From Desmonostoc muscorum LEGE 12446 (GTDB taxonomy: Bacteria; Cyanobacteriota; Cyanobacteriia; Cyanobacteriales; Nostocaceae), in assembly GCF_015207005.2 (NCBI RefSeq), contig NZ_JADEXS020000001.1, positions 6,905,001 through 6,969,000 of the forward strand: a stretch of 64,000 nucleotides of DNA, read 5' to 3'. The notes below the pieces were generated by a model. That model was not told the origin of the DNA, did not search any database, and saw nothing but the letters and a program-made list of their open reading frames with translations. Shown here in pieces: positions 49,280-54,644 of the stretch. How positions within the stretch are numbered: the first letter of the stretch is position 1; each line of letters begins with the position of its first letter. The position numbers and the translations under genes were made by a program.

Positions 49280-50107
49280 TTACTTTGCCTTAATTGGTGT
49301 TAGAGCTACACCTTTGTAATAATGCCCCAAAATTTGTAGGTGGTTCACTCCTTGACGAGCCAAATTGTACGCTCCCCATTGACTCATGCCTAAACCATGA
49401 CCGAAGCCAAGTCCTTGGAGGACAAAACTACCATCTGCTCCCTTGGAGATGCTAAAACGGGTACTTTTTAGTTTGAGCGCTGTCCGTACTTGTTCGCCCT
49501 GTAACACTTTCGTGCCTTTGTTGCCGACAATTTTCAATACTTTGACACTCCTAAAAGGCGAAAATGTTTCTGGAATCATCGCCGTTACACTACCTACTTC
49601 AGGAAATTTAGCGCTAATTTCACTGGACGAAAAGGTTTTCACCCAATTACACTGTTTGATATTTTGGTCGTAGTCTTGAACAGCGCGCAGGTACGGTAAG
49701 GTATTTCCCCAAACATCTTCGACATTTTCGGTGTGTCCGCCAGAACAAGCGTGGAAAACTGAGAGAATAATTTTGTTTTTGTAAGTTAGTACCTGGTTAG
49801 CTGTTTCATCAACTGCTTTGTAAGTAGCAGGAGATTCACTAATAACACCTTTGTAAATTTGCCAGCGATCGGGGGTGTTGCCTAAATCGTAAACGGGATT
49901 ATTGCGCTGTTTTTCTCGTTCGTAAAGGGCATAAGTGCGGGCTGCGATCGCCTGGGCTTTCAAAGCTTCTTGAGGCCAGCTAGCATCCATTTCGCCACCA
50001 AGAACGCTGTAGAGATACTCTTGGTCATCAACCCAGTTAACAGCAGTTAAACCTTTTTCTGTGGGGACAACCAGAGTTCTGCCCCGATACCAGCGATCGC
50101 CAATATA
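49280..50107 (-). pseudogene. SpoIID/LytB-domain gene, 3' part (split by an IS)
   Basis: After the insertion the frame reads FYIGDRWYRGRTLVVPTE and continues with the SpoIID domain: YLYSVLGGEMDASWPQEALK, AQAIAARTYALYERE, FHACSGGHTENVEDVWGN, LPYLRAVQDYD and GFGHGLGMSQWGAYNLARQG. SpoIID/LytB proteins trim or modify peptidoglycan. The first MSNG codons are read from IS end sequence, so the apparent start at 50122 is an artefact. Its N-terminus is at 51046-51365; with both joined the gene would encode about 380 residues. Confidence 0.88.
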
Positions 50108-51045
50108 GAACCCATTTGACATCTAAGAAGGTGCTGCAAGCCTCTTAATCATTAGCCTGATGAAGCAGATATTGAGTTTGGCAGTGGCACTAACCAGGGT
50201 TCGTTCAAAGTTCTTAACCAGAATTTTACAGCGCTCCATCCAAGCATTGGAGCGTTCGATCACCCATCTAGCTATTGCCGGAACAAATCCAGATTTTCCT
50301 TGTGCCGCTTTCTCTTGTTTTGAGGGTTTCGTAGAAAGTTGAAACTGAATTTTGGTCATGATCTCTGGGTAAATTCGCTCTAACTCCTGAGTCAAATATT
50401 CTGGGTGATACCCATGATCTAGCAGGATAGTAATCTTGGGAATATCGATAGGTTTTGACTTGAAGTAGTCGATGTTGAGAGTAAACATCTCAATTAATCC
50501 GGCATCATCCGAGACATTGGCGCGAGTACAGAGCGTAAAAAAGGGAAACCCAAGGGTGTCAATAGCCAAATGCCTTTTAATACCGTTGGTGGCTTTGTAG
50601 AAGCAAAAACCTTTCGACTCCACACTGGCGTTGCAGGTATTTTTCACTGCTTGGGAGTCAATGATGATCAATGTCGTCCAGTGCGGTTTTTTTTTTACCT
50701 GTTCACGCACTTGTCCATGTAAGACACTCATCAGTTCCTCAAATACCCCGGCTGCTCGCCACTGTTTGTAGTGCCAATATACAGTGGAATAAGGGGGGAG
50801 GTCTTTAGGTAAGTCTTGCCAATTGCATCCATTTTTTAGTTGATAGAGAATTCCATTGAAGATATCTCGCTTTGGCCAGTTGGTCGGTCGAGTCTGCTTC
50901 TTAGTCGGTAATATCTCTTGCAATAAGGGTTCAAAAATTTCCCATTCTGCATCAGTGAGGTTGCTGGAATACGCCATTAGTATTGGATTTTAGATGCTGA
51001 GGAGTACCTTAATTCAAAACCTCACAAGATGTCAAATGGGTTCTA
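50108..51045 (-). mobile_element. IS5-family insertion sequence, complete (938 bp)
   Basis: Perfect 17-bp terminal inverted repeats GAACCCATTTGACATCT (50108-50124, and complement at 51029-51045), further partial match inward. Both sides carry TATA (50104-50107 and 51046-51049), a 4-bp target duplication. Removing the IS and one TATA restores the reading frame of the SpoIID gene across GTT-TAT-ATT-GGC. It holds one transposase gene on the minus strand. Confidence 0.93.
50123..50977 (-). CDS. IS5-family DDE transposase
   Basis: 284 residues, intact. An N-terminal DUF4096-like domain (LTDAEWEIFEPLLQ; NGCNWQDLPKDLPPYSTVYW) is followed by a DDE core: Asp in LIIIDSQAVKNT, Asp in ITILLDHGYHP and Glu in ARWVIERSNAWMERC. 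It cuts and joins the 17-bp ends of the surrounding element. The stop codon overlaps the left inverted repeat. No frameshift, so the IS could be active. Confidence 0.93.
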   Translation of the reverse strand: MAYSSNLTDAEWEIFEPLLQEILPTKKQTRPTNWPKRDIFNGILYQLKNGCNWQDLPKDLPPYSTVYWHYKQWRAAGVFEELMSVLHGQVREQVKKKPHWTTLIIIDSQAVKNTCNASVESKGFCFYKATNGIKRHLAIDTLGFPFFTLCTRANVSDDAGLIEMFTLNIDYFKSKPIDIPKITILLDHGYHPEYLTQELERIYPEIMTKIQFQLSTKPSKQEKAAQGKSGFVPAIARWVIERSNAWMERCKILVKNFERTLVSATAKLNICFIRLMIKRLAAPS

Positions 51046-51365
51046 TAAACGAATCCTTTACCTGTCGGCTCAATCCAAAATAAACCAGACTGCCACTTAT
51101 CTAAAGCCACTCCCCCAGGAACCGCTTGAGCATAAAATGCACTCATCGCCGGCAACTGTCCCAAAGTCCGGCCAGTGCTATCCTTAACAATCCCAGTTGT
51201 GGAACTGCCCACTTTTACCTGATTAACCCCCCTCTCAATTGCTACGCGCAAGATTACAGACGCTTGAGCTGGGGCAACCAAAGCTATCCATAAGAAGACA
51301 CTTACCCACCAATGACGCACTTTAATCTGGGAAAATAAAGAGCCTAAGTAAAGTTGGAATTTCAT
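51046..51365 (-). pseudogene. SpoIID/LytB-domain gene, 5' part (signal peptide region)
   Basis: ATG at 51365 opens a signal peptide (VRHWWVSVFLWIALVAPAQA) and the N-terminal part of a SpoIID-type protein (SVILRVAIERGVNQVKVGSS, FWIEPTGKGFVY). At the codon for GFVY the IS begins; the last residues of the apparent ORF (RTHLTSCEVLN) are read from the IS end. The remainder of the gene is at 49280-50107. Confidence 0.85.
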
Positions 51366-51620
51366 GTTGATCATCTAATCATCACATTAGTATCTGTTTG
51401 ACGCTCTGAATTATGGCGTCTACTACTTTAAGATGAGACACTTCTCCAACAGAGGAGGTTGCCACCTCCTACTAATTATGCATTTTGGTTTAGTTATGGG
51501 GTAGAAATTGGGGAGTGGGGAGTGGGCATTGGGCATGGGAAGAAGCAGGGGAGCAGGGAGCAGAGGGGAGGATCTTCTCCCCTGCCCCCTGCTACTCTGC
51601 CTGTTCCTCATCCTCCTCAT

Positions 51621-52199
51621 CTACCCCATACCCCATGCCCAATTCTCATTATTTCGTTGTAAAAAATCGTCTACGGTGCTGGTGGAGACTGCTACAGCTA
51701 AACCGTTAGCAATCATGGTATTAATGCCCACAACTCGACCGAGACAGTCAGCAAGTGGCCCTCCAGAATTACCAGGATACAGTTGCAAATCCGCTACAAC
51801 CATACCTGGATTATTTGCATAAATAATTCCAGTTGTCACAGCACCACTGTCACCAAATGGATTACCCACTGCCAAAACTAATTCACCCACTCGTAGCGCC
51901 TCGGAATTACCAATGGTTGCAGCGGTTAAATCTGTGGCGACAATTTTTAGGGCGGCTAAATCATGCTGTGGGTCAAACTTTACGCGCACTGCATCAAATA
52001 CCCGTCCATCTGACAGTTTTATAGTTGGGCGATCGCTAATCGCTACATGGGCATTAGTGATAATTAGTCCGTCAGACCGCCAAATCACACCAGAACCAAC
52101 TCCTAAAGAACCACTTTGTACTTTGACAGTACTATTGCGTAGCTTAGTAGCCACTTGTGTCAATTCAGTAGCTATATCAGTTAATGTTGTGTTTGCCAT
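51621..52199 (-). CDS. Trypsin-like serine protease without PDZ (catalytic partner)
   Basis: ATG at 52199 (MANTTLTDIATELTQ). A DegP/HtrA-like chymotrypsin fold with the full triad: His in IITNAHVAIS, Asp in DPQHDLAALKI, Ser in YPGNSGGPLAD. No PDZ domain and no signal peptide, 192 residues in all. The last residues (NENWAWGMG) are read from a GGGCATTGG-type array, so the C-terminus was probably replaced by a repeat, perhaps removing a PDZ or tail. Follows the gene at 52211-53122 with an 11-base gap on the same strand; see that entry. Confidence 0.88.
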   Translation of the reverse strand: MANTTLTDIATELTQVATKLRNSTVKVQSGSLGVGSGVIWRSDGLIITNAHVAISDRPTIKLSDGRVFDAVRVKFDPQHDLAALKIVATDLTAATIGNSEALRVGELVLAVGNPFGDSGAVTTGIIYANNPGMVVADLQLYPGNSGGPLADCLGRVVGINTMIANGLAVAVSTSTVDDFLQRNNENWAWGMG

Positions 52200-52210
52200 G
52201 TTTTTTAACT

Positions 52211-53122
52211 TCAAACTTCCGAAGTAGGTCGTTCGCCAACTACGATCGCTAACTCAATTAACACGCCACCCCGTACAATTTGTACATTCACGGTTTGACC
52301 AATGCGATCGCTATTATTGAGCAGCCCTAGCACATCACCTGTATCACTCACAGTTACGCCATCGAATGTCACCAAAACATCGCCAAGCAGCACACCTGCA
52401 TTGTCAGCGGGTCCGGAAGGCTCAACATTGACGACAATTACCCCGGTGGCAGAAGTTAAATTCAGAGCTGTTTTGAGATTATTTGGTAAGCGTACAGGTT
52501 GCATTCCTACACCCAAGTAGCCTTTAGAAATGCGTCCTTTTGTGATTAATTGATTAACCACGCGATCGACTGTAGCAGCGGGAATAGTCAAAGCCGTACC
52601 ACGCCGTCCTGATGTATTCATACCTACAACATTCCCAGCGGCATCTACAAGCGGCCCGCCTGCAAAACCAGAGTAAAGGGTGATATCTGGGCGAATGAAC
52701 TGGTCAATATTACCGCCACTCATACTCCGCCAAGCACCACTAACTACACTCACCGCACCCATGGCCGCCCGCAAATCACCTCCGCTACTTCTTCCTAGTC
52801 CTAGTACCAGATGACCGACTTTGAGCGTTTTGGCATCACCAATTTTTGCCACAGGTATTTCTGCATTTTCCAGTTGAAAAACAGCGATATCAGTAGTAGA
52901 GTCATGGCCGAGGAATGTTACTGGCGCAGTGTGTCCATTTGATAGAGTAACAGTGATGTCATCATAGCGCTGGAGCGACTCATCAGAGGTAATAATAATC
53001 CCATTACGCCAGTGAATGCCACTTGGGGAAACACGAGTACCCCCATTTACCGCAACTACAGCATTTCCAGCCTGTTCTACGGTGTCGGCTAAGCTGTTAG
53101 ATAAAGCCAGTAATGAAGACAT
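52211..53122 (-). CDS. Catalytically degenerate trypsin-like protein with PDZ domain
   Basis: 303 residues. The protease-like N-terminal domain aligns with HtrA, but His is replaced: IIITSDESLQ stands where ITNAHV would be. Ser is replaced: LYSGFAGGPLVD for PGNSGGPL. The Asp remains (TTDIAVFQLEN). The C-terminal PDZ (GYLGVGMQPVRLPNNLKTAL; GPADNAGVLLGDVLVTFDGV; GQTVNVQIVRGG) is intact. So it should not cleave peptides but may bind substrates. No signal peptide. It is first in a two-gene unit with the active protease at 51621-52199. Confidence 0.88.
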   Translation of the reverse strand: MSSLLALSNSLADTVEQAGNAVVAVNGGTRVSPSGIHWRNGIIITSDESLQRYDDITVTLSNGHTAPVTFLGHDSTTDIAVFQLENAEIPVAKIGDAKTLKVGHLVLGLGRSSGGDLRAAMGAVSVVSGAWRSMSGGNIDQFIRPDITLYSGFAGGPLVDAAGNVVGMNTSGRRGTALTIPAATVDRVVNQLITKGRISKGYLGVGMQPVRLPNNLKTALNLTSATGVIVVNVEPSGPADNAGVLLGDVLVTFDGVTVSDTGDVLGLLNNSDRIGQTVNVQIVRGGVLIELAIVVGERPTSEV

Positions 53123-53232
53123 AAGATTTTCTCGCCAACGTTCTTAGATGTTCACATCGTGCCGCTTTCTACACAGTGATGACATCGGAAAAATGGGGAG
53201 AATTCATCCTAGAAAAATGGTTAGGAGTTAGT

Positions 53233-53335
53233 CATTGGGCATTGGGCATTGGGCATTGGGCATTGGTTATTTCTCCCCCTGCCTCCCCTGCCTCCCCTGC
53301 TTCCCCTGCTCCCTCATCCCTACTCCCTTTTTCAA
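53233..53335. repeat. GGGCATT array with adjoining CCCCTGCCT array
   Basis: Four GGGCATTGGGCATTGG units (about 53236-53266) followed by CCCCCTGCCTCCCCTGC-type units (about 53273-53312). Lies between the pseudo-protease promoter and hemD, which diverge. Confidence 0.6.
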
Positions 53336-53355
53336 TAAAATTACCTCACTGAATA

Positions 53356-54195
53356 ATGCATATCAAATCAACAGAAATTAACTTGCTCACTCCATCTAAC
53401 AAATTACCTCTATATAACAAGAGAATTTTAGTTACAGCACCAAGAAATTATGCTTGTAGGTTGTCTGAACAAATCATCAAAAAAGGTGGTTTACCTGTTT
53501 TGATGCCTACTATCGAAACCTGTTATTTATTAAACTCTACTCAGTTAGACAGCGCTCTGAGCCACATAAAAGAATTTGATTGGATTATCTTTACAAGCAG
53601 AAATGGAATCACTGCATTTTTTCACCGGATGAATGATTTAGATATTCCTGTGTCGGTGCTAAAAAATTGTCAATTATGTGCATTAGGAAAAGATTCCGAG
53701 AGCTTATTATCTTTTAGTGGCAAAGTGGATTTAATTCCCAGAGAATCTAGCCCAAGGGGAATTGTGGCTGAATTAAGCAAACTTGGGCGGATTCAGGAAA
53801 AAAAAGTGCTGATACCTGCTCCGGAGGTTGTGGGTTTGCCGGAACCTAATGTTATACCCAATTTAATTACAGACTTAGAGAATTTGGGCATCGAAGTAAC
53901 TCGCGTACCTACTTATGTTACGCAGGGTTTAGATAAAAATATGTTCAGTATTGAATTAAACCTGATTCGTCAAGGAAACATCAATGTAATTGCTTTTAGT
54001 AGCACAGCGGAAATAGAAAGCTTTTTGAGAATGGTCAACTCCCCAAGCGATTACGGTGATTGTGCGATCGCCTGTTTTGGCCCCTATACAGCAGCCAATG
54101 CTCAAAAGTTGGGAGTCAACGTTTCTATAGTGTCTGAGGATTATAGTTCATTTGAGGGATTTGCAGAAGCGATCGCCACATTTTTGGCTGTCTGA
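53356..54195 (+). CDS. hemD: Uroporphyrinogen-III synthase family protein
   Basis: 279 residues with the bilobed HemD fold: KRILVTAPRNYACRLSEQII (first lobe entry), FDWIIFTSRNGITAFFHRM, CALGKDSESLLS, then GRIQEKKVLIPAPEVVGLPE and VIAFSSTAEIESFLRMV in the second lobe, and CFGPYTAANAQKLGV. It closes hydroxymethylbilane with D-ring inversion in haem and chlorophyll synthesis. Sequence within this family is poorly conserved, so the activity is likely rather than certain. It starts close to a repeat array; upstream is divergent to the protease pair. Confidence 0.85.
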   Translation: MHIKSTEINLLTPSNKLPLYNKRILVTAPRNYACRLSEQIIKKGGLPVLMPTIETCYLLNSTQLDSALSHIKEFDWIIFTSRNGITAFFHRMNDLDIPVSVLKNCQLCALGKDSESLLSFSGKVDLIPRESSPRGIVAELSKLGRIQEKKVLIPAPEVVGLPEPNVIPNLITDLENLGIEVTRVPTYVTQGLDKNMFSIELNLIRQGNINVIAFSSTAEIESFLRMVNSPSDYGDCAIACFGPYTAANAQKLGVNVSIVSEDYSSFEGFAEAIATFLAV

Positions 54196-54341
54196 TTTTC
54201 GTGTCCAGCTTCTGGTACATGTAAACTAGCTCCACTACCTGCTACTTGAATTTACAACACTCAACCACAATTAACTCTAGACTCGCAGCACATAAACCCG
54301 TAGTATCGAAAATGGAGTTTATATTAGTTAGGGATTTTTAC

Positions 54342-54644
54342 ATGGCAACTTACAAGGTCACATTAAAGACCCCAGATGGTGAAAAAACAATTGAAGTTGA
54401 TGAAGATGACTACATCCTAGAGATTGCTAACGAGGAAAACGGCCTCGACTTGCCCTACTCCTGTAACGCTGGTTCTTGCTCTACCTGCGCCGGGAAGCTG
54501 ATTTCAGGCGAAGTTGACCAAGACGATCAGAATTTCTTAGACGACGACCAAGTTGACGCGGGATGGGTGCTTACCTGTGTGGCTAAGCCCCTTTCTGATT
54601 GCGTCATCCAAACCCATCAAGAAGAAGCGCTCCAAAACGCTTAA
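54342..54644 (+). CDS. petF: Plant-type [2Fe-2S] ferredoxin
   Basis: 100 residues from ATG at 54342 ([20 protein letters not shown]). Cluster cysteines at 41, 46, 49 ([11 protein letters not shown]) and 79 (VLTCVAK), in the usual PetF spacing. Acidic surface ([28 protein letters not shown]) for docking to FNR and photosystem I. Soluble electron carrier after photosystem I or in heterocyst metabolism. An in-frame extension from 54246 is not part of the family. Monocistronic; no separate regulatory site is clear. Confidence 0.96.

Follow-up and report, generated by a model that had tools for sequence, protein, structure and literature searches.

Two neighbouring genes on the minus strand of the genome of Desmonostoc muscorum LEGE 12446, here called up (52211..53122) and down (51621..52199), are, on comparison with related loci, the rearranged, still-linked remainder of a conserved three-gene unit, up-down-luxR. 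Coordinates refer to the window, that is, the whole stretch of 64,000 nucleotides analysed. The earlier reading of the locus as a two-gene system had missed the third gene, luxR, and the co-retention of up and luxR suggests, as our best reading, that the functional core of the module is the Up protein plus the LuxR protein. The function we propose, tentatively and with a little less than even confidence, is that Up is a PDZ protein of the cytoplasm and that it controls, with no need of proteolysis, a LuxR regulator that works independently of phosphorylation, the active HtrA protease being accessory. The evidence comprises the anatomy of the locus, the co-retention, the intact triad in outgroups and its repeated loss, the degenerate receiver of the regulator, its constant tail, and a conserved upstream DNA element.

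An HtrA Fold with a Dead Triad

The up gene (ATG at 53122, minus strand) encodes 303 amino acids in which Pfam recognises Trypsin_2 (3.9e-19) and PDZ_2 (6.5e-18). This arrangement of a chymotrypsin-fold domain followed by a PDZ domain, as in the HtrA/Deg (S1C) proteins, was also found with PDB matches and with a structure model, which reached a pLDDT of 88.9 with a 114-row alignment (54.7, a poor value, with a 32-row alignment). The original prediction was of two neighbouring minus-strand genes with the HtrA-type trypsin fold, the upstream one keeping its PDZ domain but having Glu for the catalytic His and Ala for the Ser. This description was borne out by Pfam, which matches Trypsin_2 in both genes where they had been placed, and by the orthologues of up at 89 loci. 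Glu48 (codon 52979..52981, in ITSDESL) takes the place of the His and Ala154 (52661..52663, in GFAGGPL) that of the Ser, while Asp78 (52889..52891) is the retained catalytic Asp. Since its triad reads Glu/Asp/Ala instead of the His/Asp/Ser of HtrA/Deg, Up is an HtrA-fold protein and not an HtrA protease.

Across these 89 loci (a set built with the best 80 of 143 related loci, a few genomes being included twice), Glu occupies position 48 at 87 loci and His at the other 2, position 78 is always Asp, and position 154 is Ala in 81, Gly in 3, Val in 2, Ser in 2, and Glu in 1. The recurrence of the substitutions shows that the dead site is not due to chance. In a wider search, in which 7998 candidates were scored, the best 120 of 3104 homologues are Glu/Asp/non-Ser proteins (113 with Ala, 3 with Gly, 3 with Val, and 1 with Thr), and PDZ models were found on these best 120. 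The possibility that up is a recent pseudogene was ruled out by the dN/dS ratios (median 0.127, maximum 0.26 for 366 pairs from 28 Nostoc loci, taking pairs with dS of 0.15-1.5), which indicate purifying selection; the median is lower than that of the active protease, Down (0.193, also 28 Nostoc loci). Copies that are frameshifted (G469) or broken (G334) do occur.

The PDZ domain (residues 201-293, 52244..52522, minus strand) contains the stretch GYLGxGMQ, which we take to be the carboxylate loop of HtrA PDZ domains. In 114 sequences, G201, G204, and Q208 of this loop are invariant, and Y202, L203, G206, and M207 are at least 90% conserved. No Pfam match to a C-terminal TauE domain was found in Up, which ends after the PDZ domain.

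The claim that neither protein has a signal peptide stands insofar as none is evident in Up or Down, judging from hydropathy: the most hydrophobic 15-residue stretch of the N-terminus scores 0.93 in Up and 0.91 in Down, as against 1.65-2.54 in five canonical HtrA paralogues encoded elsewhere in this genome. The measure is crude: over 120 homologues of Up, the median is 1.05 and the highest reach 1.61, so that it does not separate all of them. HtrA/Deg proteases, which assemble as trimers, are usually but not universally exported or anchored in the membrane. Some Up proteins carry the database label "LuxR family transcriptional regulator", perhaps carried over from the neighbouring gene.

The Active Protease and Its Truncated PDZ Domain

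The down gene encodes a catalytically intact HtrA-type protease domain of 192 amino acids (Pfam Trypsin_2, 8.1e-30). Its mechanical open reading frame begins at TTG 52214 (197 amino acids), and the likely start is ATG 52199, 11 bases past the up stop codon. As had been claimed, Down has the His/Asp/Ser triad of HtrA/Deg (S1C), with codons at 52047-52049 (His51), 51960-51962 (Asp80), and 51765-51767 (Ser145) on the minus strand, and no PDZ domain was matched by Pfam in the window's product. All 78 orthologues keep the Asp and the Ser, and 77 keep the His; the exception is a sister genome (L009:5870-7848, G479), in which about 1.3 kb of inserted DNA interrupts down.

The further claim that a clean division, with substrate recognition on one subunit and catalysis on the other, is the design of the pair has to be given up, as the loss of the PDZ domain is derived. 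It is retained in 72 of the 78 locus orthologues, and in the survey of the family (below), the match to Down extends through the PDZ region in 89 of 104 hits, reaching at least residue 267 of 278, which makes the PDZ-less Down of the window a secondary truncation. Among the 15 hits that stop before this region, one (G453) may keep its PDZ domain past an insertion. The best 120 listed relatives of Down, read by eye, include 23 proteins of fewer than 230 amino acids, the rest carrying PDZ models. On a 94-row tree (to which the 23 short proteins were added and from which seven rows, L009 and L090-L095, were left out), the PDZ state changes at least eight times, with only two changes forced by starred branches.

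The truncation can be located in the DNA. Homology between the window and the intact operons L013 and L029 ends at 51650, around residue 184 of Down; past this breakpoint, the relatives have the PDZ part and luxR, and the window has repeat-rich sequence, the stretch 51621..51650 (minus strand) encoding a non-homologous, repeat-like C-terminal tail. The new flank is common to two sister genomes (L012 and L017). The operon is bordered at either end (51500-51640 and 53225-53260) by short repeats of the CCCAATG/GGGCATT type, arranged head to tail, and these may have mediated the break, since the last codons of the truncated protease resemble part of one repeat.

Repeated Loss of the Active Site

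An outgroup query (L097) was used to collect more distant relatives of Up. Among the best 120 of 6163 (98-50% identity to the query), 96 keep His/Asp/Ser, from which it follows that the non-catalytic role of Up is not the original one. The other 24 have Gln/Asp/Ser (13), His/Asp/Ala (3), Glu/Asp/Ser (3), Gln/Asp/Leu (2), His/Asp/Thr (2), or Tyr/Asp/Ser (1). On an unrooted, 136-row quick tree built from 12 near proteins (of 120), the full set of 120 far ones, and 4 sequences from the loci, the label "active" or "dead" changes at least nine times, seven of these changes being forced by strongly supported branches; the tree-building tool itself cautions that quick trees are less reliable when they include long rows. 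Since the ancestor would naturally be expected to have had an active trypsin fold, these changes point to repeated, independent losses of the triad, and Up reads as the descendant of an active enzyme.

The Third Gene

In 78 of 85 loci (a count made without L089, L090, L092, and L093), down is followed by an open reading frame for a LuxR/NarL-type protein; at those loci that lack down, this frame comes after up. The gap is 60 bases or fewer in 69 of the 85, and 62 show a 4-nt overlap between the luxR start and the stop codon before it. No adjacent luxR was found in the remaining seven (L009, L010, L012, L017, L039, L078, and L091), two of which, L010 and L091, have a short flank; four others (L009, L012, L017, and L078) appear, from their contigs and positions, to correspond to genomes G479, G510, G487, and G548, which hold luxR elsewhere. 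Fused reading frames also exist: in G469, the down frame continues into the LuxR-type protein, and L124 is a natural down-luxR fusion. The genome of the window has its luxR 0.4 Mb away from the pair (G000:C1:7379028-7379657; L139, L142), between unrelated genes and 82% identical to a Nostoc relative, and no PDZ remnant was found in the surrounding 9 kb. The start of this relocated gene looks altered, with no ATG at the usual place, and its GLIML end is kept.

The luxR product has a GerE/LuxR DNA-binding domain (PF00196, 76 bits) and a receiver that scores 23.4 bits with Response_reg, under the Pfam cut-off of 30.2. In 98 sequences (some genomes being represented twice), the first acidic residue of the receiver is always Ala, the second is never Asp, and the Lys position is never Lys; 81 of the sequences retain the phospho-acceptor Asp. 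This is not the phosphorylatable receiver of NarL-family response regulators, and the absence of the first acidic residue, the second Asp, and the Lys makes ordinary phosphorylation of the protein unlikely. Its C-terminus reads G[LWF][ILV][MLA][LV] in all 96 uncut ends, 72 of them being GLIML. Other LuxR-type proteins of the window's genome, taken as a control, end variously, some of them alike (e.g., GLVNL and GIVSL); since such ends are also sometimes hydrophobic, the tail is suggestive of a PDZ ligand and no proof of one. With a median dN/dS of 0.113 (25 Nostoc loci), luxR is under purifying selection.

Co-Occurrence and Distribution

In the GTDB family of the window, 217 genomes were surveyed, absence meaning no hit at E-value limits of 1e-45 (up), 1e-38 (down), and 1e-45 (luxR). 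The up gene was found in 116, down in 104, and luxR in 116; all three occur in 102 genomes, none in 98, and up and luxR without down in 12. The pair is therefore conserved in other cyanobacteria, both of its genes being present in 102 of these genomes, as the check proposed with the original prediction asked. The up and luxR genes occur together in 114 genomes and apart in only 4, namely, G334 (with a broken up) and the Fischerella genome G438 (L039), which have up without luxR, and G472 (72% complete) and G542 (84% complete), which have luxR without up. In the Fischerella genome, neither down nor luxR was found, either in the family search or at the locus. Both genes are kept even though unlinked in the window's clade (G000, G479, G487, and G510) and in G548.

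The down gene occurs without up in only 2 of its 104 genomes, one of them 72% complete with the gene near a contig end, the other with a stop inside down. The reverse case is more frequent: up lacks down in the 12 genomes with luxR, in G438, and in the broken copy of G334. At 17 down-less loci from 12 distinct genomes, the Up triad reads Glu/Asp/Ala in 16 and Glu/Asp/Gly in 1, and no catalytic HtrA member of the module was found there. In one strain, Nostoc flagelliforme FACHB-838 (probably G474), the operon at L020 is accompanied by a further, partial copy (L061) that comprises up and luxR and lacks down.

Further afield, a sample of 386 genomes of the phylum contained an up orthologue clear of paralogues in 9, plus the broken copy in G334. 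Among the 42 genomes searched from the family to which G185 belongs, up is present in 11, 10 of them with up-down-luxR and 1 with a fusion of up to a LuxR helix-turn-helix. At L175:3903-4736 (G590), the protease domain of Up is joined in frame to the LuxR DNA-binding domain (277 amino acids), apparently by deletion of most of the PDZ domain, down, and the receiver. Two Paraburkholderia plasmids (L164 and L165) hold a relative of up. The P. phymatum copy appears to be frameshifted; that of P. sprentiae, with 40% identity and an intact triad, has a response regulator gene 18 bases downstream, whose product shows a degenerate receiver, and the stretch examined yielded no down beside it. Judging from these plasmids, with their pseudoreceiver LuxR neighbour, the up-luxR unit extends beyond the cyanobacteria.

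The Upstream Element and the Surroundings

A 42-bp element, CTA-CCATTTTTC-TAGG ... CCCATTTTTC-CGATG, lies 61-102 bases before the start codon of up (53183..53224, minus strand) and is a candidate operator or promoter. Of 84 upstream regions extracted, 38 were aligned, and all of these, read by eye, contain CTAgCCATTTTTCTAGG ... CTcCCCATTTTTCyGATG or a close variant. The pattern matches once in the window, with one mismatch, and not at all in 100 shuffles. In the genome of 9.6 Mb, the gapped pattern has its sole match at 53183-53224, so no regulon is visible; with 2 mismatches allowed, a genome scan gave 7 other copies, as against 1 for the reversed control. The element extends across families: variants can be made out by eye at 10 of the 12 cyanobacterial outgroup loci (L166 and L167 being the two without), and the element is kept in the down-less loci L052, L065, L076, and L087. 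By eye, it was not seen upstream of the P. sprentiae relative or in front of luxR at its new place in the window's genome. That the LuxR protein binds this element is a guess.

No Rfam family was found within 51300-53500. The divergent neighbours of the operon (53356-54644) encode a HemD-type uroporphyrinogen-III synthase and a 2Fe-2S ferredoxin. On the other side, an IS4/5-type transposase gene (50123-50977) lies between the apparent halves of a SpoIID-like gene, one recognised by eye (51009-51374) and the other by Pfam SpoIID (49280-50122). In total, 33 matches to Trypsin_2 were counted in the genome, and nine proteins from five other trypsin-like clusters (L119-L123) match our queries, with best scores of 34-61 bits. 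Their N-termini are signal-peptide-like, and some have TPR- or WD40-like repeats (by eye); the idea that these clusters are copies of the same system was not retained.

A Proposed Mechanism and Its Alternatives

In the mechanism that we propose, Up, an HtrA fold turned into a binding device, would hold the LuxR protein via its PDZ domain, which would take the conserved hydrophobic C-terminus of the regulator. This grip might set the DNA binding or the stability of the regulator, and competing ligands, such as the exposed C-termini of damaged proteins, could release or expose it; alternatively, changes in oligomer state could do so. The LuxR protein would, in turn, act on the conserved upstream element and so control its own operon. 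The active protease may assemble with Up or be fed by it and degrade either the regulator or the bound clients, and would be an accessory that many lineages trim, by loss of the PDZ domain, or lose. An action of Up on the regulator by binding is the simplest account. The co-retention of up and luxR follows partly from operon inheritance, and the hydrophobic end of the LuxR protein may be only part of its DNA-binding domain.

The main alternative, which we consider unlikely, is a plain, autoregulated quality-control operon in which the LuxR protein, on sensing stress, drives the transcription of two genes for cytoplasmic HtrA chaperones or proteases, without direct contact between regulator and HtrA proteins. 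HtrA proteins are stress proteins, and the genes form a tight operon with a conserved upstream element. A pseudoreceiver could, moreover, bind a small ligand, as do the quinone-binding pseudoreceivers of clock proteins (PMC13421787). However, such an operon would leave unexplained the repeated inactivation of one HtrA, the retention of up with luxR after down has been lost or after the genes have become unlinked, and the natural fusion of up to a helix-turn-helix. Somewhat less likely still is the heteromeric protease of the original prediction, with Up and Down in mixed HtrA oligomers in which Up recognises the substrate and Down cuts it, the LuxR protein merely regulating the operon. The pairing of pseudoprotease and protease is real, the triad of Up and the PDZ domain of Down have each been lost repeatedly while the best 120 listed Up proteins carry a PDZ domain, and down is scarcely ever found without up, which is why a heteromer survives as a possible second layer on the Up-LuxR module. 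Yet, of the 114 genomes that have both up and luxR, 12 lack down, Up is still dead at the 17 down-less loci, and in the outgroup genomes read, the triads are mostly intact in both proteins; since the dead Up persists without an active partner, an obligate two-subunit protease is not the whole function.

Finally, the locus might be a dying remnant in the lineage of the window, the pair being conserved elsewhere without a special function here. The loss of the PDZ part, the relocation of luxR, the interrupted down of the sister genome (L009/G479), and the damaged up copies of G469 and G334 are all consistent with decay. This is nevertheless improbable: compared with Nostoc loci that have an intact operon (n = 25 for each gene), the median dN/dS is 0.142 for the up and 0.220 for the down of the window, which also keeps the triad, the reading frames, the upstream element, and a relocated luxR with its GLIML end.

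Relation to Known Systems

The coupling of a protease to a transcription regulator is familiar from the regulated proteolysis of DegS/RseA, and up-luxR resembles this system in that respect, although DegS is periplasmic. In DegS-like regulation, a PDZ domain binds a C-terminal peptide; in Up, the residues of the putative carboxylate loop are conserved. In Synechocystis, the PetP of PetRP is a predicted membrane protease that degrades a BlaI-type regulator (PMC13421787). In contrast to DegS and to PetRP as outlined in that article, the protein considered here has an HtrA fold, has no evident signal peptide, is often without catalysis, and goes with a LuxR-type protein. The Deg5/Deg8 proteases of chloroplasts are alike in having two HtrA-type subunits in one assembly but differ in that both have catalytic histidines (rotated in the crystals), and no dead partner or regulator gene is described in the passages that concern them (PMC4877387).

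The nearest functional parallel, by analogy and as far as the cited sections of that work go, is MamO/MamE of the magnetotactic bacteria, where a degenerate HtrA-type protein stands beside an active HtrA-type protease (PMC4794232), just as the degenerate triad of Up stands beside the active Down. The MamO pseudoprotease activates its partner without catalysis, and MamO-like pseudoproteases arose independently in three taxa (PMC4794232). The two systems differ in that MamO and MamE are magnetosome proteins, that MamO has a TauE domain and a metal site, and that no LuxR gene is described in those sections (PMC4794232), whereas in the present case, there is no evident signal peptide and the dead subunit outlives the active one. 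Our search of the open-access literature brought up no account of a comparable HtrA-LuxR unit.

The inactive and the PDZ-less Deg proteins of a 2016 review presumably belong to the up/down group. In the tree of this review, by Cheregi et al., Deg proteins of Nostoc punctiforme ATCC 29133 and Anabaena variabilis ATCC 29413 are marked as proteolytically inactive and others of the Nostocales as PDZ-less, with neo-functionalisation suggested (PMC4877387). The relevant parts of the review describe no pairing, luxR operon, repeated inactivation, or upstream element, and they name Synechocystis 6803 as the only cyanobacterium with biochemical or molecular biological data on Deg proteins (PMC4877387).

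It is conceivable, though on balance doubtful, that the module represents a new class of signalling, in which an HtrA protein whose active site has been lost repeatedly serves as a cytoplasmic PDZ receptor that grips the C-terminus of a kinase-independent LuxR protein, with protein damage instead of phosphorylation as the input and with proteolysis as an option. The up-luxR case is a testable example of a protease turned signalling scaffold, for which nature offers replicates in the form of active up, dead up, up without down, and unlinked luxR. In the Nostocales, the unit offers a function to seek in the "inactive Deg" genes, which, in the sections cited of the review by Cheregi et al., are left as possible neo-functionalisation.
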